Of a DNA stretch of 64,000 nucleotides, positions 2,881 to 12,864 are shown in pieces. A program made the position numbers and the translations under genes. Source of the stretch: Streptomyces erythrochromogenes (GTDB lineage: Bacteria > Actinomycetota > Actinomycetes > Streptomycetales > Streptomycetaceae); assembly GCF_036170895.1 (NCBI RefSeq), contig NZ_CP108036.1, forward strand, positions 7,537,501 through 7,601,500, written 5' to 3'. Under the pieces are notes generated by a model. The model was not told the DNA's origin. It did not search any database and saw only the letters and a program-made list of their open reading frames with translations. How positions within the stretch are numbered: position 1 is the first letter of the stretch; each line of letters starts with the position of its first letter.

Positions 2881-3831
2881 ATGTCCGAGTCGGGCCGGAG
2901 CGGCCAGGAAACCATGCGGGCGATGGCGTACGAGACGTACGGCGGGACGGAGGTGCTCTCCGAGACCCGGCTGCCACGGCCCAAGTTCGGCCCCGGCGAG
3001 GTCCTCGTCCGGGTCAAGTGCGCCGCAGTCAACCCCGTCGACTGGAAGATCATGGCGGGCGGCCTCGACCCCCTCATGGACGTGGTCTACCCCGTGGTCC
3101 CCGGCTGGGACGTCGCCGGCACGGTCGAGAAGGTCGGCATCGACGTCCCCGAGTACGCCGAGGGCGACGAGGTCATCGCCTACGCCCGCAAGGACTACGT
3201 CCACGGCGGGACCTTCGCCGAGTTCGTCACCGTGCCCGTACGCGCGCTCGCGCACAAGCCCGCCTCGCTGAGCTGGGCGGAGGCGGCCGGACTGCCGCTC
3301 GCCGGGCTCACCGCCTACCAGCTGCTCACCCGCCTCGGCACCGGCAAGGACGACATCGTCCTCATCCACGGCGCCGCCGGCGGCGTCGGCTCCCTCGGTG
3401 TGCAGATCGCCCGCTCGCTCGGCGCCCGCGTCATCGGCACGGCGTCCCCCCGCAACCACGACCGGGTGCGCGAACTCGGCGCCGAGCCCGTCGAATACGG
3501 CGACGGGCTGGCCGACCGCGTCCGCGCCCTCGTGCCCGACGGGCCCACCGTCGTCGCGGACTTCGTCGGCGGCGTCGGCGCAGTCACCCGGGAGGTCCTC
3601 CACGACGACGGCCGGCACGCGTCCATCGCCGACCCCAGCGTGCTCGGATCCGGCGGCGAATGGATCTGGGTCCGCCCCGTCGGCAGCGACCTGGCCGAAC
3701 TGGGCCGGCTCGCCGACAGCGGGCAGCTGAAGGTGCCCGTCGCCAAGACCTTCCCGCTGTCCGAGCTGGCGGCCGCCTTCGAGCTCAGCCAGGGCGGCCA
3801 CACCGCGGGAAAGATCATCATCGAGGTCTGA
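2881..3831 (+). CDS. NADP-dependent quinone oxidoreductase-like enzyme
   Basis: A zinc-independent medium-chain dehydrogenase/reductase of 316 residues. The N-terminal GroES-like domain (residues 12-130) carries the AVNPVDWKIMAG signature of the quinone reductase branch, followed by a Rossmann domain with the nucleotide-binding turn HGAAGGVGSLGVQIA near residue 164. The zinc ligands of alcohol dehydrogenases are absent. It should reduce a quinone or enone with NADPH in the cytosol; the physiological substrate is not evident. The ATG at 2881 has GGAGAGG upstream. It stands alone and converges on the RNA-repair operon. Confidence 0.85.
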   Translation: MSESGRSGQETMRAMAYETYGGTEVLSETRLPRPKFGPGEVLVRVKCAAVNPVDWKIMAGGLDPLMDVVYPVVPGWDVAGTVEKVGIDVPEYAEGDEVIAYARKDYVHGGTFAEFVTVPVRALAHKPASLSWAEAAGLPLAGLTAYQLLTRLGTGKDDIVLIHGAAGGVGSLGVQIARSLGARVIGTASPRNHDRVRELGAEPVEYGDGLADRVRALVPDGPTVVADFVGGVGAVTREVLHDDGRHASIADPSVLGSGGEWIWVRPVGSDLAELGRLADSGQLKVPVAKTFPLSELAAAFELSQGGHTAGKIIIEV

Positions 3832-3873
3832 CCCCTGGACCGTCTCCGCGAAGCAGCGCCGCCGGCCTGCGGT

Positions 3874-6747
3874 TCAGGCGCCCAGGTCCGGCACCTCACC
3901 ACCCGCCGCCCAGGACACCTCGACCCCCCGCAGGCCGGCCCGCCAGTGGTCGGCCGGCCCGGCCAGCCGCGCCGCGTCCGGCGGCGCGGCACCCAGGCCG
4001 ATCACGTACCGGGCCAGGCCCGGCCCGGACTCGAAGGGACGGGGCCACGCGTGCGCGCCGGTGACGCCGGCCTCCTCCAGCGCACCGAGGAGCGCCCGCA
4101 ACCGCCCGCGCATCCGGCCCCGTACCTCCTCGAACTCCGCCTCGGACGTCCGTACGGTCACCACCGCCCAGGCGGCGTGCCGGCGGTGCGGCGGCGGTGC
4201 GGCCGCGGCCAGGGCGTCCGCAGCGAGCCCCGACTCCAGCAGCTCCCAGGCCCCGTACAGCTCCTGCACCAGGAGGTCCCGCAGACCCGGTGTCACCTGG
4301 GCCGTGCAACTGCGCACCGGCTCCGACGGGGTGAGGACCGTGACCGGATCCGGCCCCGCGGCGGACGCCGCCCACGCGACCGGCTCGCGCCAGTCCCAGG
4401 CGGCCCACCGCCCGAAGAACTCCCGCACCAGGGCGTCCGGCGGCAGGGCCCCCGCCTCCCGGACCGTGCGCGCCGCGAGGACCGACCAGGCCAGTCCCGG
4501 CAGCCCCCCGAACGGTGCCGAGTCCAGCCCCCTGGCCCGCGCCCACGCCTTCACCCGCCGCGCGAGTCCGGCGAACGCGGCATGCTCCGCACCCACCGCC
4601 TCCCGTACGGCGTCGGCGTCGCTCACCGCGCTCAGCGCGACGGAGGCGGCCTCGCCCAGCTCCGCCCGGCGCGCCACCGCCAGCGCCGGATCCAGATCGC
4701 CGGTGGGGACCACCACCAGATCGACGGACAGCGCCCCGACACTGAAGCGCAGGCCCGGCACGCGGGCCCCCGTCACCTCGCGCAGCCCGCGGGCCTGCGG
4801 CAGCGCGGCCGCAACCCGCTCGCGCACCGAGGCCGCGTCGACCGGTCCCGGCAGCGCCACCACCAGGTCCAGATCGGCCCCCGGCAGGTCGCAGCCCATC
4901 CGGCGGGAGCCGGCCACGTGCACCCGCGCACCGGGCAGCGCGGCCCCGACGCGCGCGGCCACCGACTCGGCGTGATCCGCCTCGGCCCCCGACCGACGCT
5001 CCGCCGGGTGCCCCGGCAGGTGCCCCGGCAGGGGTTCGGGCAGCGGCTCCGGGGTCCAGCGCACCTCGCCCGTCCCCAGTGCCACCGTCGCCCGGACCCG
5101 CATCGGCCCGTCCCCGCGCCGCGAGAGCACGGCGAGCTCCCCGACCCGCGCGGACACCGCCCCGCCGAGACGCGCCGCGAACTCGGCGACCGCCCGCTGC
5201 GGGTCGCGGCTGCGCCCCAACGTCAGATGCGGCGTGTACCCCCCGTACGCGCCGGAACGCCCCCGGCATCCGGGGAACCGCTCCGCCAGCGCGCGCCGGA
5301 GCTCCTGCCACGGCGCCTCACCGGCCGCCGCCGGATCCAGCCAGACGGTGGCCTCCTCACGGTGCCCGAAGCTGTGCACACCCTCCAGCCGAGCCTCGAA
5401 CGGAGCGCTGTCCGCGGCCACTTCGGCCAGCAGCGGAACGGCCTCGGCGAAGGAGGACTCCGGCACGAAACCGAAGAGCAGGTTCACGTGCGCGGGCCAG
5501 CGCGCGTCCGCCGGGTCGTGGTCCCGGCGCACCTCCCGCACCGCGTCCGGGAGGCGCGGCGGCAGCCACGCCACCGCCGTCCGCACGGTCGCCGGCACGT
5601 CGAGCCGCGTCGGCCCGTCGCCGGGCGTCCCGAACTCCACCGTCGCCTCCACCCCGAAGTGGTCCGAGACGAACAGTCCGTCGGGGGCCGGGGAGTCGCC
5701 GCGCAGCGCCGCCCGTGTCACCCGGGCCGGGGCGGAGCCCAGCAGGATCCGGTCCAGCCGCCCCGCGCGGCCCGTCAGCGAACCCACCGCGGCCAGCGGA
5801 TTGGCCACCGGGTCGAAGGTCGGCGTGGCGTCCGCCGCCCCGTGCACCTCGCACCAGGCGTCCCGCATGCCGAGCGCGGGCGCCGGCCCCTCGGCCCCGT
5901 GGCGGCCGTCGTTGAAGTCGCCCAGAAGGGCCACACCGGCGTCGACGCCGCCCAGGCCCTCCGCGAGCCGGGCCAGTTCGGCCTCCCGCCGCTCGTGCCC
6001 GTTCTCGGTGTGGTCGCTGGTCAGGTGGGTGGCGGCGACGACCAGCGGCCCGGCCGCGGTGTCCACCGTCACGGCGGTGACCGCCTTGTGCGGGCGGAAC
6101 ACGTGCAGGCCCGCCTCCCGTAGCGGCAGCCGGCTCAGCACCAGCAGCCCGCACTCGGCGACGTCCCGGCCGCCGGGATCCGTGCCCAGGGTGTACCCGG
6201 CCCGCACCCACGGCGCCGCCAGCAGCATGCCGAGCAGCTCCGGCTCGACCTCCTGGAGCGCGATCACGTCGGCGTCCGCGACGGCCAGATCGTCCAGCAG
6301 GAGCGGCCTGCGCCGGGCGGTGGCGATGCGCGGGGCGTCGTAGCGGTCCCACAGGGTGTTCCAGGTCAGCAGCCGCACCGAGGACGGTGCCGCCGCAGTG
6401 TCCACAGGGCCGGCCTGGGCGGGACGCCACGCGCCGCCGCCCGCCGGATCCCACGCGTACGGGGTCCGCGCCGTGAAGAAGGGCGCCCGCAGCAAGCGCG
6501 GATCACGGACCCGGCCCGCCGCGGTCACGTCGATCAGGTCCACGCCGGTGGCCCGGTCCCACACCAGCTCGCCGTCCGCCTCGACGAACAGCACCCGGTG
6601 CCAGGGGATGTCCCCGCCGGGCACGAAGGAGGGCAGCGGGACCCGCTTCGGCGGCGCTCCGCGCTGGAGCAGGCCGAGCACGAACCGCGCCGGATCGAAC
6701 CGGGGGTCCCAGCGGACCTGGTGGTAGAGCTGCTCACTGGTGCGCAT
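3874..6747 (-). CDS. MJ1316-EEP-2H-poly(A) polymerase RNA repair protein
   Basis: A 957-residue chain of RNA end-processing domains. Residues 1-75 form an MJ1316 (DUF504) domain, thought to recognise cyclic RNA ends. Residues 123-372 are an endonuclease/exonuclease/phosphatase domain with its expected motifs (TWNT 128-131, QE 165-166, GDFND 276-280, SDH 361-363). Residues 405-565 are a 2H (LigT-like) phosphoesterase with HVN at 420 and HLT at 507; the first motif has Asn for the usual Thr/Ser. Residues 590-840 are a eukaryote-like poly(A) polymerase with GS at 613-614, DLDL at 625-628 and a third Asp at 676. The start overlaps the ligase gene by 14 bases. The chain suggests recognition, trimming, cyclic phosphate opening and nucleotide addition on broken RNA. 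Confidence 0.85.
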
Positions 6748-8518
6748 CGCGACCTCCGCCCGCCGTGACCGGGCCGGCCGCGAGGGTGCCCGCCGTGTCC
6801 TCCACGTCCCCGCCCGCGCCGACGTACCACGTACGGTGCGCCCGGCCCGCGCACGGCGGGCTGAACCGGCGCAGCTGCGCGGCCAGCACCTGCGGCGGCA
6901 CCGGATGCGGGCGCACACCGTTGCGGCGCTCCAGTTCCGCCTTCTCGACCAGCACCACGGCATGGGTGACCAGCGCGTCGCGGCGGCGCGCCACCGCACC
7001 GGCCAGCCCGCGCTGCTGTCCGGTGAGCGAGGTGGCGTCCCACACCACCGTGCCGCCGCGGGCCAGGGCGGCGTCGAGCCGGTCCAGGCCTTCGCGGAGC
7101 ACCTCCTGGTTGGCCCGCTGGTCCGTACGCGAACCCCGTGCGGTGCGCAGGTCGTCGAGGGAGACGTACGCGTCCACGCCGGGCAGGCCGCGGCCGAAGG
7201 TGCTCTTCCCGCTGCCCGAGGGACCGCACAGCTGCACCAGTCGGGGAAACGATCCGTCGCGCCACTGCCACGTCGCCGCCACGGCCTCCTCCACCGAGGA
7301 TCCGGAGATCCTGCCGTCCGCGAACGCGCGCCGGGCCTCCGCCCAGCAGCGGTCGGCCGCGGCCGCGTCCAGCCCGGCGAGTGGCTCCCGCAGCGCGGCG
7401 CGCAGGGACTCCAGCGGATCCGGGCCGCCGAGCAGGCCCGCCTCCTCGGCCCACAGCGCGGACCACGCCACGTACTCACGCGCCTCGGGCCCGTCGGCCA
7501 GTGTCCCGGCGAGCGCGTGCAGCACCCCGAGATCGGCCGCCGCGGCCATCCGTACGAGCCCGGCCCGCCGGTCCGCGTCGGGGAACGGCCGCTGGAGGTA
7601 CGGGTACAGCCCGAGCAGGTCGCCCACCCGCCGGGCGAGTCCCATCCCGGCAGGTCCCGCGGCGAGCCGTGCGGCGACCCGGGCCCGCGGTTCGCGGCGC
7701 AGCGCGGCGGCGAGCACCCCGGCCAGCCGGTCCTCGCCGGTCCGCCCCGAGGCGTCGATCCGGGCGGCGGCCTCGGAGACCTCGGCGACCGTGCCCGCGA
7801 TCGGGACCGCGTCCGTGTCTTCGCCCCGGTCCGTGCCGACGGCGGCCGACAGGGCCGCGACATCGGGCTCGGCGCCCGAGCGCACCGCCCACAACGGGGC
7901 CGCCCGACCGAGCCCGTTGGGCACGACCTCCGCGTACATCCAGTGGGTGTCGGTCTGCACGTGGCCGCCCCGCACCCACTTGGCCACGCAACTCCCGAAG
8001 TCCGCACGGGTGAAGGCGGCGGCCGTGCGCACGACGTAGCCCTCCTGACGGGCGGTGTCGAGCCTCAGCCTGCGCAGCGCGCGCTCGTCGAAGGTGCCGC
8101 GCCACAGCACGCGCGGGGTGGGCACGCCCAGGCCGCGCAGGAACCCTACGGTCCGGTCCCAGTCGAGACAGTGCTCCCCGTCCCAGACCGAGAACCCGTA
8201 GAACCAGCTGTCCAGGTCCTCGTAGGGGATCGAGTGCCGGGCGTAGAGGTTCTCCCCGCACACCCGCCATCCGGCCGGGATGCCGGGGCCGATCCGGCCC
8301 TGGAGGCCCTTGACCCAGGCCCGTGAGGGGTGGTGTCCGGAGTCGAGCGAGCGGGCGTGCAGCCCGTCCGCGTACAGGGTGGTGTTCTCCCCGTCGAGCT
8401 TCTCGGTGACCACGACCTCCCGCCCGGTCAGCCCCGCCGACCCGACGGCCCGGACGTCGTCCGCCGAAGCCCCGGGCGACCAGGGCAGATGAGGCGTACG
8501 GGGATAGTGGGTGCGCAT
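6734..8518 (-). CDS. RNA ligase fused to P-loop polynucleotide kinase
   Basis: A 594-residue repair enzyme. The N-terminal half is an Rnl2-like nucleotidyltransferase with motif I EKLDGEN (K40 is the adenylated lysine), GENLYARHS near 88, WFYGFSVWD at 105-113, motif IV EGYVVR at 159-164 and motif V VAKWVR at 178-183. Residues 425-560 form a P-loop kinase with GPSGSGKST at 432-440 and D455-D456 as likely catalytic acids. Together they could phosphorylate a 5' end and seal RNA. The ATG at 8518 has GGAGCGG upstream. It is the promoter-proximal gene of the operon. Target RNA is unknown; a nuclease-damaged tRNA is the usual proposal for such systems. Confidence 0.85.
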
Positions 8519-8588
8519 GGTCCGCTCCGGCTCGACGACGTGGTTCGCCGTCACTGTAGGTATCGGGGAGCGGGTGGATCCACCCAAT

Positions 8589-9074
8589 TCAGCGGCAGAG
8601 GGCCACGATGGCCGGTGACACCGTGCCCTTGGCCGCCTCGCACAGGGGAGCCATGTCGTACGAACGGCCCGGGGCGGGGCGGGACTTCGCCGGCGCCGCC
8701 GGCTGTCGGCGGGCCTTCGCCCGGGGCGCGGGCTTCGCCGGCTTCCCCGGCTTCGCGGTCCTGGGGGGCTCGGCCCTGCGCGGCGGACGCACCGGCCGGG
8801 CCGGCTGCTCGGCGGCGGCGGCCGGCCGCTGCGGCGCCGACGCCGGTACGGACACGGGTTCGTCCGGCTCCGGCGCGGGTTCCGCGGCCCCTGCGGACGG
8901 CAGCAGGACCAACGGCCCGGCCGCGACCATGGATTCACGCTGCAGCCCGCGGTTTCCGGCGGGCGCCGGCTGCGGCGGGTCCGGCGCGGGGACGGGAGCG
9001 GGATGCACCGTCACGCATCCGGAGGCCATGACGAGCGCGGCGAGTGTCAGGGGCAGGGCCCGGCGCAGCTGCAT
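8589..9074 (-). CDS. Putative lipoprotein
   Basis: A 161-residue exported protein. The first 20 residues form a lipoprotein signal peptide ending in the lipobox LVMASGC, so the mature protein should be lipid-anchored outside the membrane. A long proline/alanine/lysine-rich linker (about residues 28-135) would span the wall, and a short C-terminal domain with two cysteines (PLCEAAKGTVSPAIVALC) could form a disulfide. The function is unknown. It ends 70 bases before the RNA ligase start, so some read-through into the RNA-repair operon is possible, though the two are not obviously linked in role. Confidence 0.75.
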   Translation of the reverse strand: MQLRRALPLTLAALVMASGCVTVHPAPVPAPDPPQPAPAGNRGLQRESMVAAGPLVLLPSAGAAEPAPEPDEPVSVPASAPQRPAAAAEQPARPVRPPRRAEPPRTAKPGKPAKPAPRAKARRQPAAPAKSRPAPGRSYDMAPLCEAAKGTVSPAIVALCR

Positions 9075-9341
9075 CCGACCACCCTGCCGCACCCGCGCCG
9101 CGGGGGCCGCGCCGATCACACGGTCGGGTGACGGCGGCCCTCCCACCCGAAACCCTTCGGCGACCGCACCGGCGGCACCGGTCACGCCCGCTCGGCGTGC
9201 ACCGGGCGCGCACGCTGCGTGACGGCCCGGAGCGGATCCGGAGCTGCGCCGGAGCGGATCCGGGCGATCGAACATACGATGGGCGGGAACCGGCGCGGGC
9301 GGCTCGCCGCGCCGCCGGACCGGGCCGCCCCTGGGAGACGC

Positions 9342-11018
9342 ATGACACAGGCCGCCGAACCGGCGCGGACCGTCATCCTGACCGTGGACGACGATCCCGG
9401 GGTCTCCCGTGCCGTCGCCCGCGACCTGCGGCGCCACTACGGCGCCGGGTACCGGATCGTGCGCGCCGAGTCCGGCGAGTCCGCGCTGGAGGCACTGCAC
9501 GAGCTGAAACTGCGCGGCGACCTGGTGGCGGTGATCCTCGCCGACTACCGCATGCCGCAGATGAACGGCATCGAGTTCCTCGAGCAGGCCGTGAACGTGT
9601 ACCCGGGCGCCCGGCGCGTGCTGCTGACCGCCTACGCGGACACCAACGCGGCGATCGACGCGATCAACGTCGTCGACCTCGACCACTACCTGCTCAAGCC
9701 CTGGGACCCGCCCGAGGAGAAGCTCTACCCGGTAGTCGACGACCTGCTCGCCGCCTGGCGCTCCAGCGACTACCGCCCCGTCCCTGCCACCAAGGTCGTC
9801 GGGCACCGCTGGTCGGCCCGCTCCTCGCAGGTGCGGGAGTTCCTGGCCCGCAACCAGGTGCCGTACCGCTGGTACTCCTCCGACGAGCCCGAGGGGAGGC
9901 GGCTGCTGGAGGCGGCCGGGGCCGACGGACAGCGGCTGCCCCTGGTCGTCACCCCGGAGTGCACCGTGCTGATCGAGCCCGAGGCGGCCGACCTGGCCGC
10001 CCACGTGGGGCTCGCGACGACACCGGCCGCCGACTTCTACGACCTCGTCGTGATCGGCGGCGGCCCGGCCGGGCTCGGCGCGGCCGTGTACGGGGCCTCC
10101 GAAGGACTGCGGACCGTACTGGTCGAGCGGTCGGCGACCGGCGGGCAGGCCGGGCAGAGCTCCCGCATCGAGAACTACCTCGGCTTCCCCGACGGCGTGT
10201 CGGGTGCCCAGCTCACCGAACGCGCCCGCCGCCAGGCCGGCAGGTTCGGCGCCGAGATCCTCACCGCGCGCGAGGTCACCGGACTCGAGGTCAACGGCCC
10301 CGCGCGCGTCGTCCGCTTCTCCGACGGCTCCTCCGTCGCCGCCCACAGCGTCATCCTGGCCACCGGAGTGTCCTACCGGCAGCTCCGGGCGCCCGGCTGC
10401 GACGACCTGACCGGCCGCGGGGTGTACTACGGCTCCTCGCTGACCGAGGCCGCCTCCTGCCAGGGCCACGACGTGTACATCGTGGGCGGCGCCAACTCCG
10501 CCGGCCAGGCGGCCATGTACCTGTCGCGGGGCGCGAAGTCGGTGACGCTGCTGGTGCGCGGGCAGTCCCTGACGGCGTCGATGTCGTACTACCTGGTCCA
10601 GCAGATCGAGGAGGCGCCGAACATCTCGGTGCGGACCCGGACCGTCGTCGAGGCCGCGCACGGCGAGGAGCACCTGGAGCGGCTGGCCCTGCGCGACGTC
10701 GACAGCGGGGCGACGGAACTCGTCGACGCGCAGTGGATGTTCGTCTTCATCGGCGCGGCCCCGCTGACCGACTGGCTGGACGGCACGGTGCTGCGCGACG
10801 ACCGCGGGTTCATCCTGGCCGGCCCCGACCTCACGCCGGACGGGCGGCCGCCCGCCGAGTGGGCGCTGGACCGGCCGCCCTACCACCTGGAGACCAACGT
10901 TCCCGGCGTGTTCGTCGCGGGCGACGCGCGGGCCCAGTCCGCGAAACGCGTCGCCTCCGCGGTCGGAGAAGGAGCCATGGCCGTGATGCTCGTCCACCGC
11001 TACCTGGAGCAGTCATGA
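9342..11018 (+). CDS. Receiver-glutaredoxin-thioredoxin reductase fusion
   Basis: A 558-residue redox-signalling fusion. Residues 8-130 are a response-regulator receiver (VDDDPG acids, phospho-Asp in VILADYRMP, lysine in LLKPWD). Residues 145-220 look like a glutaredoxin-fold insert without a CxxC. Residues 230-555 are a thioredoxin-reductase-like FAD/NAD(P)H oxidoreductase (GGGPAG and GGQAGQSSRIENYLGFP; a second nucleotide site at VGGANSAGQAAM). The CxxC of true thioredoxin reductase is missing, only AASCQG remains, so it cannot reduce thioredoxin in the normal way. The ATG at 9342 follows GGGAG. The stop overlaps the kinase start (ATGA), so the kinase is its likely phosphodonor. Confidence 0.85.
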   Translation: MTQAAEPARTVILTVDDDPGVSRAVARDLRRHYGAGYRIVRAESGESALEALHELKLRGDLVAVILADYRMPQMNGIEFLEQAVNVYPGARRVLLTAYADTNAAIDAINVVDLDHYLLKPWDPPEEKLYPVVDDLLAAWRSSDYRPVPATKVVGHRWSARSSQVREFLARNQVPYRWYSSDEPEGRRLLEAAGADGQRLPLVVTPECTVLIEPEAADLAAHVGLATTPAADFYDLVVIGGGPAGLGAAVYGASEGLRTVLVERSATGGQAGQSSRIENYLGFPDGVSGAQLTERARRQAGRFGAEILTAREVTGLEVNGPARVVRFSDGSSVAAHSVILATGVSYRQLRAPGCDDLTGRGVYYGSSLTEAASCQGHDVYIVGGANSAGQAAMYLSRGAKSVTLLVRGQSLTASMSYYLVQQIEEAPNISVRTRTVVEAAHGEEHLERLALRDVDSGATELVDAQWMFVFIGAAPLTDWLDGTVLRDDRGFILAGPDLTPDGRPPAEWALDRPPYHLETNVPGVFVAGDARAQSAKRVASAVGEGAMAVMLVHRYLEQS

Positions 11019-12514
11019 GCGGGCAGTTCGTGCACTGCGACCCGCAGGAGATCGCCTCGCTGTTCCTGTTCGAGAAGCTCACCCCGCAGCAGCTCGGGCA
11101 ACTGTGCGCCGAGGGCGGGGTGGAGCGCTTCGACACCGGTCCCGTGTACGCCGAGGGCGACCCGGCCTCCTGCTTCTACGTGATGATCGAGGGCACCGTC
11201 GTACTGTCCCGCCGGGTCGGCGGCGACGACGTCGAAGTGAGCCGGACCTCGCAGCGCGGCGTGTACGCGGGGGCCATGCAGGCCTACCTCGGCGACCGGG
11301 TGCCCCAGACGTACACCAACTCGATGCGGGTGACCGAGCCGACCCGTTTCTTCGTGCTGCCCGCGCAGGCGTTCTCGGACTTCATGCAGGAGTGGTTCCC
11401 GATGGCCGCGCACCTGCTGGAGGGGCTGTTCTTCGGCGCGAAGAACACCCAGCGGGCCATCGGGCAGCGGGAACGGCTGCTGGCCCTCGGATCGCTGTCC
11501 GCCGGTCTCACCCACGAGCTCAACAACCCGGCTGCGGCGGCCGTCCGGGCCACCGCGACCCTGCGCGAACGCGTCGGCAAGATGCGCCACAAGCTCGCCG
11601 TCATCGCCCAGGGCCACTATTCCCGCGAGGCGATCGCCGACCTCATCGAGGTCCAGGAGCGCACGGTGGAACGCGTCGCGAAGGCGACGGCGCTCAGCCC
11701 GCTGGAGGCCTCCGACCGGGAGGACGAGCTCGCCGACTGGCTCGACGACCACGGCATCGCGGAGGGATGGCGGATCGCACCGACCTTCGTCCAGGCCGGG
11801 CTGGACGTGGACTGGCTGGAGCAGGTCGCGGCGGCCGTGGACGACGACATCCTCCCCGGAGCCATCGGCTGGCTCAACTACTCGGTCGAGACCGAGCTGC
11901 TGATGGACGAGATCGACGACTCCACCACCCGCATCTCCCACCTCGTCGACGCCGCCAAGCAGTACTCGCAGCTCGACCGGGCACCGACCCGGGTCGTCGA
12001 CGTCCACGAACTCCTCGACAGCACCCTGCTGATGCTGTCCGGCAAGATCGGCCCCCGGGTGCAGGTGGTCAAGGACTACGACCGCTCCCTGCCGGACGTA
12101 CCCGCCTACCCGGCGGAGCTCAACCAGGTGTGGACCAACCTCATCGACAACGCCGTCTTCGCCATCGGCAGCACCGGAGGCGACGGTACCCTGACGGTCC
12201 GCACGGCACGCGAGGGGGACCGGCTGCTGGTGGAGTTCCGCGACACCGGGCCCGGCATCCCGGCCGACATCCGCGGCCGCATCTTCGACCCCTTCTTCAC
12301 CACCAAACCGGTCGGCGAGGGCACCGGCCTCGGCCTGGACATCTCCTGGCGCATCGTCGTCAACAAGCACCACGGCAGCCTCCAGGTCGAATCCGCCCCC
12401 GGTGACACCCGCTTCCAGGTACTGCTGCCGCTGACCGCACCGGAACCCGAACCCGAGAACGCCCCCGGAACCGGAACCGCGCCCGCAACCGAGACCGCCG
12501 AGGAGCCCGCATGA
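11015..12514 (+). CDS. Sensor histidine kinase with cNMP-binding domain
   Basis: A soluble 499-residue kinase. Residues 5-140 form a cyclic-nucleotide-binding-type beta roll (YAEGDPASCFYVMIEG). The dimerisation helix carries the phospho-acceptor histidine in SLSAGLTHELNNPAAAA near residue 167, a NtrB-like H-box. The C-terminal ATPase has N, G1 and G2 boxes (NLIDNAVFAIG; FRDTGPGIPADI; GEGTGLGLDISWRIV). The tail is a proline/glutamate-rich linker. No membrane segment is present, so the input is cytosolic. It overlaps its neighbours by four bases on each side, and presumably phosphorylates the upstream receiver-reductase fusion. Confidence 0.88.
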   Translation: MSGQFVHCDPQEIASLFLFEKLTPQQLGQLCAEGGVERFDTGPVYAEGDPASCFYVMIEGTVVLSRRVGGDDVEVSRTSQRGVYAGAMQAYLGDRVPQTYTNSMRVTEPTRFFVLPAQAFSDFMQEWFPMAAHLLEGLFFGAKNTQRAIGQRERLLALGSLSAGLTHELNNPAAAAVRATATLRERVGKMRHKLAVIAQGHYSREAIADLIEVQERTVERVAKATALSPLEASDREDELADWLDDHGIAEGWRIAPTFVQAGLDVDWLEQVAAAVDDDILPGAIGWLNYSVETELLMDEIDDSTTRISHLVDAAKQYSQLDRAPTRVVDVHELLDSTLLMLSGKIGPRVQVVKDYDRSLPDVPAYPAELNQVWTNLIDNAVFAIGSTGGDGTLTVRTAREGDRLLVEFRDTGPGIPADIRGRIFDPFFTTKPVGEGTGLGLDISWRIVVNKHHGSLQVESAPGDTRFQVLLPLTAPEPEPENAPGTGTAPATETAEEPA

Positions 12515-12864
12515 CCGACATCAAGGGGATCGAACCGACCGTCCCGCCGACCGGCACCGGCTGCACCGACTGCGACGCGGTGGGCGGCTGGTGGTTCCAC
12601 CTGCGGCGCTGCGCCCAGTGCGGCCACGTCGGCTGCTGCGACTCGTCGCCCGCCCAACACGCCACCGCCCACTGGAAGGCCACCGGACACCCGCTGGTGC
12701 AGAGCTTCGAGCCGGGCGAGGGGTGGTTCTGGGACTACGACGCCAACGAGATGTACGAGTCCGGGCCCCGGCTGGCCCCGCCGGGCGAGCACCCCGCGGA
12801 CCAGCCTGTCCCCGGACCGGCCGACCGGGTGCCGGAGGACTGGACGCGCCGCCTGCACCGCTGA
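12511..12864 (+). CDS. UBP-type zinc finger protein
   Basis: A 117-residue protein dominated by a UBP-type zinc finger (residues 18-75: CTDC, CAQCGHVGCCD, then HATAHWKATGHP), with the usual Cys/His ligands. In eukaryotes this fold binds the ubiquitin C-terminus; in bacteria its partner is unknown. Its start overlaps the kinase stop (ATGA), making it the third gene of the redox-signalling operon, so it probably acts with the kinase and the receiver-reductase. The arrangement of these three genes is, to my knowledge, repeated in other actinobacteria. Confidence 0.88.
   Translation: MTDIKGIEPTVPPTGTGCTDCDAVGGWWFHLRRCAQCGHVGCCDSSPAQHATAHWKATGHPLVQSFEPGEGWFWDYDANEMYESGPRLAPPGEHPADQPVPGPADRVPEDWTRRLHR

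Follow-up and report, generated by a model that had tools for sequence, protein, structure and literature searches.

A two-gene operon on the reverse strand of Streptomyces erythrochromogenes DNA, lying within the 64,000 nucleotides that we analysed (positions 7,537,501 to 7,601,500 of contig NZ_CP108036.1; hereafter the window, whose own numbering is used), is read here as an accessory RNA heal-and-seal operon that in actinobacteria would be switched on through WblC/WhiB7 under translation inhibition, a reading to which we give a probability of roughly two in three. Gene 1 encodes an RNA ligase, a helical domain and a polynucleotide kinase, while gene 2 joins an MJ1316 domain, an EEP module, a 2H phosphoesterase and a poly(A) polymerase (PAP). 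The identity of these domains and their invariant active sites, the pairing of the two genes, and a promoter element that is conserved upstream of gene 1 and rare at other genes carry this reading. Judged by its domains, the two-gene set should form an RNA repair toolkit, expected to clean, extend and rejoin broken RNA.

Domains and active sites of the two proteins

Domains were assigned with Pfam, with all matches in both proteins lying above the curated cut-offs (Table 1). An earlier note on this DNA, made from the letters and their open reading frames, had described a ligase-kinase gene that overlaps a multidomain gene by 14 bases; its coordinates and overlap are exact, its domain names and order agree with Pfam and the alignments, and the catalytic motifs it called readable are not lost on alignment to relatives, the checked residues being the same in all 32 gene 2 proteins and all 31 gene 1 proteins aligned. 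Its account of five functions in one protein chain needs amending: the functions are present, with the ligase and the kinase on a separate polypeptide. The frame overlap may couple the translation of the two genes.

In gene 1, the match to RNA_ligase (PF09414; residues 33-182, 8e-32) contains K40, D42, G43, E44, N45, E89, N90, E159, G160 and K180, all invariant among the 31 proteins, as is V162. The lysine of KxDG, the EGxV motif and a final lysine are the motifs of RNA ligases; the roles of the catalytic motifs in both proteins come from family knowledge. The module is predicted to be an ATP-dependent ligase of the PF09414 type that seals 3'-OH to 5'-phosphate RNA ends. The kinase module matches AAA_33 (residues 427-555, 8.6e-19), keeps K438, S439 and D455 in all 31 proteins, and combines a P-loop with the Pnkp kinase fold. 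Between the two lies the helical domain (residues ~205-420), which the earlier note did not contain. It is predicted mostly with high confidence and has no Pfam match, and it is left unclassified rather than called new because the VIA matches for the gene 1 protein (P0001) spanned the kinase alone.

The gene 2 alignment comprises 32 proteins, 18 of them actinobacterial (the window protein included) and 14 obtained from a cyanobacterial match and its own search, with 26-81% identity to the window protein (P0002). The MJ1316 part scores 63.3 bits against PF04457 (cut-off 26.3), and W13, D14, H50, R51, W63, R65 and D70 are invariant. The 2H module retains H420 and H507 in all 32 proteins and matches B. 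subtilis BSU11850 (2.5e-8). The EEP module (Exo_endo_phos, PF03372; residues 127-363, 2.9e-15) keeps N130, E166, H241, D277, N279, D332, S361, D362 and H363, and thereby the catalytic set of the family (N, E, GDxN and SDH).

Among solved relatives, the EEP profile is closest to TDP2 (6.7e-17), followed by CNOT6L (1.3e-5, over the N-terminal stretch only) and ANGEL2 (0.011), so that ANGEL2/CCR4 was rejected as the nearest relative and is used below as an analogy of role only. The EEP module could supply a terminal-phosphatase step, its substrate being putative. Given that TDP2 is the best solved relative, and that the genome contains a KptA-family match, the module's substrate might instead be a 5' adduct (protein, nucleotide or ADP-ribose) and not a 3' or 2' phosphate, in which case blocked 5' ends would also be repaired and KptA would take the 2'-phosphate. 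We regard this as unlikely, since EEP enzymes share one fold over many substrates and no recurring neighbour hints at a source of adducts.

The PAP module matches PAP_central (PF04928; residues 728-807, 3.8e-8, 33.6 bits against a cut-off of 27.1) and keeps the GS..D-x-D motif and the third carboxylate (G613, S614, D625, D627 and D676, invariant in 32). From end to end (~578-957, 2.4e-66) it aligns with canonical eukaryotic poly(A) polymerases, nearer than to URT1 (1.4e-11) or Cid1 (2.1e-7), and so resembles a canonical, eukaryote-type enzyme with predicted ATP-specific tailing activity. The C-terminal RNA-binding domain has no Pfam match; several PAP chains reach residue 957, at a root-mean-square deviation of 8-11 only. 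The structure comparison that the earlier note had proposed thus places three modules, the kinase as Pnkp-like, the PAP as canonical and the EEP as TDP2-like, and leaves the ligase with no match among solved structures at E 0.01.

Two further arrangements of these domains were observed. Elsewhere in the same genome, a separate 2H protein (L002, C1:391120-391683) is 56% identical to the gene 2 module and has no MJ1316 match, and a linear Streptomyces exfoliatus plasmid encodes a short MJ1316-2H fusion (L085:4001-4810) that its gene table does not show.

Table 1. Features of the operon, in window coordinates
Feature	Position	Strand	Details
Promoter of WblC/WhiB7 type (predicted)	8553..8591	(-)	hexamer TGAATT 8591-8586, GGG, -35 TGGATC 8582-8577, 18 nt, -10 TACAGT 8558-8553
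Gene 1: RNA ligase, helical domain, polynucleotide kinase	6734..8518	(-)	ATG 8518, stop 6734-6736, 594 aa
RNA ligase module	7904..8518	(-)	residues 1-205; Pfam match; K40xDG, E89 N90, E159 G160, K180 invariant
Helical middle domain	7259..7903	(-)	residues ~206-420; all-helical; predicted local distance difference test (pLDDT) by block mostly 80-97
5'-OH polynucleotide kinase module	6791..7252	(-)	residues 423-576; AAA_33, Pnkp-like
Frame overlap of gene 1 and gene 2	6734..6747	(-)	14 nt; short overlaps or gaps also in relatives
Gene 2: MJ1316, EEP, 2H, PAP	3874..6747	(-)	ATG 6747, stop 3874-3876, 957 aa
MJ1316 domain	6553..6747	(-)	residues 1-65; PF04457, 3.6e-17
EEP module, TDP2-like	5620..6405	(-)	residues 115-376
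2H phosphoesterase module	5110..5562	(-)	residues 396-546; PF13563 (2_5_RNA_ligase2), 1.8e-35
PAP module, canonical type	3877..5010	(-)	residues 580-957

Conservation and distribution of the gene pair

A protein search with gene 2 scored 1270 relatives at E <= 0.001. The earlier note had proposed looking for the order MJ1316-EEP-2H-PAP in databases, and all four domains are found in the best 120 matches listed, where the named organisms are Streptomyces and the source names include "poly(A) polymerase" and "RNA repair domain-containing protein"; the arrangement is thus not a chance one. One genome per species was then scanned, giving 232 relatives of which the best 80 loci were kept. The ligase-kinase gene lies directly upstream of gene 2 in 79 of these 80 loci (truncated by a contig end in eight of the 79), and one locus (L043) has gene 2 without gene 1. 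Of the 79 loci, 41 show a 1-nt overlap of the two genes and seven a 14-nt overlap, three have them abutting, 27 have a gap of 2-7 nt and one a gap of 50 nt; as the tblastn match defined where gene 2 begins, the values for L015, L016, L025 and L057 (match beginning at residue 3, gap 5 nt) are approximate.

This pairing is accompanied by correlated pairwise distances of the two proteins (r = 0.80, with 0 of 999 permutations as high, in 36 loci with both genes complete), as expected of co-travelling genes; shared descent alone would give the same. With a crude gene caller, whose own recovery was 67 loci for gene 1 and 63 for gene 2, no other neighbour cluster occurs in more than 22 of the 80 loci. 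The two genes therefore look like one unit set in varied surroundings.

Within the genus, MJ1316 was found in 33 of 121 genomes (this one included), in frames of at least 779 aa in 24 and of 134-479 aa in nine, as judged by frame length only. A phylum-wide draw gave two of 296 genomes, both of the same genus; despite this sparse draw, the operon also occurs in other families in the 80-locus scan. Gene 2 matches were found by tblastn in eight of 72,556 plasmid records, four of them over at least 80% of its length. One of these four lies on a conjugative Calothrix plasmid and encodes a protein (P0243) with 30% identity and the same domain order. No gene 1 relative was found within 14.6 kb around this gene (L084:5995-8970). 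A search with P0243 scored 197 proteins, and the 120 listed are mainly cyanobacterial where named and mostly of about 1000 aa, one coming from an Acidobacteria bin.

The absence of a gene 1 relative at this locus, the one cyanobacterial locus examined, and at L043 could fit a role in tailing or processing without repair, in which the EEP and 2H modules would clean 3' ends for PAP tails that mark or mature RNA, and the ligase-kinase would act on a subset or make circles. The match to canonical poly(A) polymerases points the same way, as does the parallel with ANGEL2 and MTPAP in mitochondria, where ANGEL2 removes terminal phosphates and animal mitochondria need such an EEP phosphatase before polyadenylation (PMC9525292). 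This role is nevertheless quite improbable, as tailing alone leaves unexplained why the ligase-kinase adjoins gene 2 in 79 of 80 actinobacterial loci, and the closest solved EEP relative is TDP2, not ANGEL2.

The same distribution bears on a second alternative, that of a conflict system: the tRNA it mends would have been cleaved by anticodon nucleases, by toxins or by the colicin-like nucleases of rivals and phages, and the promoter would only provide ready expression. The patchy presence in genus and phylum, the varied gene surroundings and the conjugative plasmid of the cyanobacterial relative are in line with it, and toxins and phages are the usual explanation for repair systems with RNA ligases of the ATP type (PMC7824862). 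Further, the ligase module is 33-52% identical to ligases of phage records over 22-35% of gene 1 (32 records match, and all of the 30 listed exceed 200 kb). Against this, PADLOC-DB gave no convincing match for either protein (only mad3, E 0.02, on the P-loop), gene 2 has no relative among 50,697 phage records, and no neighbour recurs beyond the 22 loci given above, although no screen of the neighbours for families of toxins or defence proteins was made. In addition, a translation-stress signal is what the conserved promoter plan suggests, though such a signal could itself follow an attack on tRNA. We therefore consider a conflict system rather unlikely, although it is the alternative with the best claim.

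Two side observations concern the surroundings. In 10-11 of the 80 loci (L030, L037, L040, L041, L048 and others) the operon lies beside, and on the opposite strand to, genes that cluster with ribosomal S10, L3, L4 and L2 of L030 (Pfam was run on L030 only), and a gene for a dynamin-like GTPase is found two genes from the gene 2 relative on the Calothrix plasmid.

A promoter of WblC/WhiB7 plan upstream of gene 1

Comparison of the sequences upstream of gene 1 among relatives revealed a two-part element. When a matrix was trained on 59 loci together with the window, it recovered TTATTCGNTGGA, 17 or 18 nt, and CCTACAGTGA in 60 of 60 upstreams, all above the 99% shuffle level, a count which is descriptive as the training set is the test set. 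The site mostly lies about 70 nt before the gene 1 ATG (range 45-130). Across the window and loci (2.41 Mb, both strands), 79 sites score at least 16, and 71 of them are operon promoters.

This arrangement follows the plan published for WblC promoters of S. coelicolor, in which 3 bp separate GAAAWY from a downstream -35 of low conservation (TKGMNN), itself 16-19 bp (best 17 or 18) from TANNNT (PMC7157823). A literature pattern was built from that study (3 nt, TKGM, 16-19 nt, TANNNT), with GAAAWY relaxed here to at least four A/T of six. The relaxed pattern is present in 56 of 71 operon upstreams but in only 2 of 570 control upstreams, which belong to other genes of these loci; it is found in 17 of 22 operon upstreams outside Streptomyces and in 13 of 16 genus labels (one label being an actinobacterium without genus name). 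With at least five A/T of six, the counts are 44/71 and 0/570. An earlier run with fewer operons gave 50/60, with 4/579 controls and 4/3000 shuffles; adding eleven operon starts removed nine nearby upstreams from the control set, two of them matches. When the most AT-rich match is taken in each of 56 loci, hexamer positions 2-5 have an AT content of 0.88-1.00, compared with 0.00-0.39 for the three spacer positions and 0.09-0.29 for the 12 nt that precede the hexamer.

The regulator itself is encoded in this genome. Among 13 WhiB-type matches, nine were parsed, and wblC (L094) was recognised by the AT-hook RPRGRPRK and EPWG. Within 900 nt before the cysteine motif, the pattern occurs at wblC only and is lacking at the eight others parsed; another wbl gene (L089) reaches a matrix score of 15.5, yet has no literature pattern. 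Because a long leader and a putative site of autoregulation have been described for Streptomyces wblC (PMC4921905, PMC6282962), this match serves as a modest positive control. In M. abscessus, WhiB7 sites also carry an AT-rich sequence 3 nt from the -35, with the -10 at 13-14 or 23-24 nt by the authors' counting (PMC10727445), spacings unlike the 17/18 of the operon. The operon promoter, in plan and spacing that of S. coelicolor targets, suggests that WblC would bind it and that antibiotics would induce the operon. RNA repair would fit the WblC regulon, as the latter includes ribosome rescue and tRNA-processing genes (PMC7157823). On account of this promoter, induction by WblC under translation stress is put forward as the first setting, and colicin-type nucleases as one possible setting.

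Several results weigh against a repair operon switched on by WblC. The relaxed pattern fails in 15 of 71 operon upstreams; GAAAWY with at most two mismatches fits only 38/71 (1/570 controls), since many sites are TTATT-like; and the -35/-10 pair without the AT rule, found in 56/71 operons, also occurs in 16/570 controls. The region upstream of wblC scores 6.1 on the operon-trained matrix, below the 99% shuffle level of 9.3, so that wblC and the operon share the plan of the site and not its letters. The main text of the S. coelicolor study has neither "ligase" nor "RNA repair", that strain not having been checked for the operon, and a link between operon and WblC was not found in the main texts of the S. 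coelicolor and M. abscessus studies searched. On the protein side, the ligase part of gene 1 is poorly modelled, with low confidence, in the predicted structure, as is the MJ1316 part of gene 2, and activity, binding and expression are all predicted from sequence. The loci are related, and their counts are not independent. Finally, the genome also encodes RtcB (C1 position 3713676), a KptA-family protein (4304791) and four further PF09414 matches (7497307, 420760, 619657 and 730077; one below the cut-off), which suggests several RNA-repair routes within one genome.

The departures of the hexamer from GAAAWY in many loci and the low matrix score of wblC would also suit a promoter in which WblC plays no part, be it a standard HrdB promoter boosted by an AT-rich stretch or one bound by a different regulator. 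Its -10 is a plain TANNNT, and WhiB1 and WhiB3 share the sigma partner in mycobacteria (PMC6282962). What makes such a promoter doubtful, about as much as the 5'-adduct alternative above, is that 3 nt lie between the AT patch and a degenerate TKGM -35, which has the 17/18 spacing of WblC targets, that the full pattern is rare at control genes (2/570), and that wblC alone has it among the nine wbl genes parsed of 13 found.

Other elements were rejected or are of side interest. The eight non-operon sites scoring at least 16 were not taken as WblC sites; one lies in L028, and seven belong to a recurring element with an inverted repeat, ATAATCGCTGGACCAGCG or close variants, which has no TANNNT -10 (L003, L004, L005, L006, L007, L032 and L059) and in close relatives lies near 11.2-11.9 kb (-), downstream of the operon on the other strand. 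The perfect palindrome GGGTGGATCCACCC (8572-8585, inside the promoter) was not taken as an operator, since it is not a perfect repeat in the 59 relatives examined. A sigma-70 and terminator scan of 3600-9400 found nothing, its hexamer rule excluding this -35. The pattern is absent from the promoters of L085, the separate MJ1316-2H gene, and L002, the lone 2H gene. The gene immediately upstream on the same strand (8589-9047) encodes a small lipoprotein-like protein with no Pfam match, and its TGA stop forms part of the AT-rich hexamer.

Proposed course of repair and relation to known systems

In the proposed course of a WblC-switched repair, translation inhibition would raise WblC, which, to judge from the promoter plan, would sit on the AT-rich patch and recruit HrdB-RNA polymerase to the weak -35, so that the ligase-kinase and the MJ1316-EEP-2H-PAP proteins would be made together. 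The substrate would most likely be tRNA or rRNA cut by metal-independent RNases, with 2',3'-cyclic phosphate and 5'-OH ends. The MJ1316 domain, going by its family, would hold the broken end, the 2H module would open the cyclic phosphate, the metal-dependent EEP module would clear a remaining terminal phosphate or blocking group, and the PAP module would re-add lost 3' nucleotides or tail the end; the kinase would phosphorylate the 5'-OH, and the ligase would then seal. Since LigT-type 2H enzymes leave behind a 2'-phosphate, this group would still need removal, either by the EEP module in an ANGEL2-like role or by the KptA-family protein encoded elsewhere in the genome. The earlier note had read the set as RNA repair, and the domains and motifs fit; it gave the EEP module no role of its own, while here the module is TDP2-like. 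The order of these steps, and any benefit to the cell, are likewise our proposal.

The operon is not a new type of system, as its domains are already annotated in Pfam and in NCBI names and have been surveyed: Burroughs and Aravind (2016) reportedly surveyed RNA repair systems with MJ1316 domains that bring together a ligase, end-modifying enzymes and a nucleotidyltransferase. The MJ1316 domain is described as recognising 2',3'-cyclic ends and as fused to RNA-repair domains, the latter said of eukaryotic lineages (PMC6514570). Like the Pnkp/Hen1 and Pnkp1-Rnl-Hen1 complexes (PMC4411300), the operon has an RNA ligase and a Pnkp-like kinase; unlike them, its two proteins carry no Hen1 or metallophosphoesterase domain by Pfam and have 2H, EEP and PAP modules instead. 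Membership in Pnkp/Hen1 was rejected on these two proteins, the bacter_Pnkp model scoring 29.8 bits, far below its cut-off of 750. With T4 Pnkp/Rnl tRNA repair and jumbo-phage RNA ligases the operon has in common a 5'-OH kinase and a PF09414 ligase, whereas it fuses ligase, helical domain and kinase, and its gene 2 has no phage relative. The RtcB/RtcA operon, regulated by RtcR (PMC7790460), likewise places RNA repair under a stress regulator, with another ligase family and another type of regulator, and RtcB is encoded elsewhere in this genome. In agreement with the earlier note, which had expected little experimental work on the architecture, none was found in the open-licence literature searched.

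What is new here is the canonical-type PAP in a genus described as lacking PAP I, the TDP2-like EEP module and the WblC-type promoter; the first and last are what sets the operon apart within a known kind of RNA repair system. Unlike the canonical eukaryotic poly(A) polymerases, this PAP module sits inside a bacterial protein, following EEP and 2H modules. Streptomyces is said to have no PAP I, with PNPase as the tailing enzyme on indirect evidence (PMC5872136, a review), and S. coelicolor likewise has none, while one S. cavourensis strain carries a horizontally acquired PAP I-like gene (PMC8208693); the available parts of these two papers do not mention the gene 2 protein. The promoter offers a concrete, testable trigger for RNA repair and would link it to intrinsic tolerance of ribosome-targeting antibiotics in actinobacteria, in parallel with Rtc, which is linked to such antibiotics in E. 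coli (PMC12606134). We lean slightly towards the broader view that operon carriers regularly include RNA end repair in their WblC/WhiB7 response, in which antibiotics that target translation would lead to broken tRNA or rRNA, the two-protein machine would heal, extend and reseal it, and a eukaryote-type PAP would enter a genus whose tailing is credited to PNPase.

Apart from the repair operon, the window contains a likely operon at 9219-12864 (+) that encodes a response regulator fused to a thioredoxin-reductase-like flavoprotein, a protein with a cyclic-nucleotide-binding domain and HATPase, and a zf-UBP protein.

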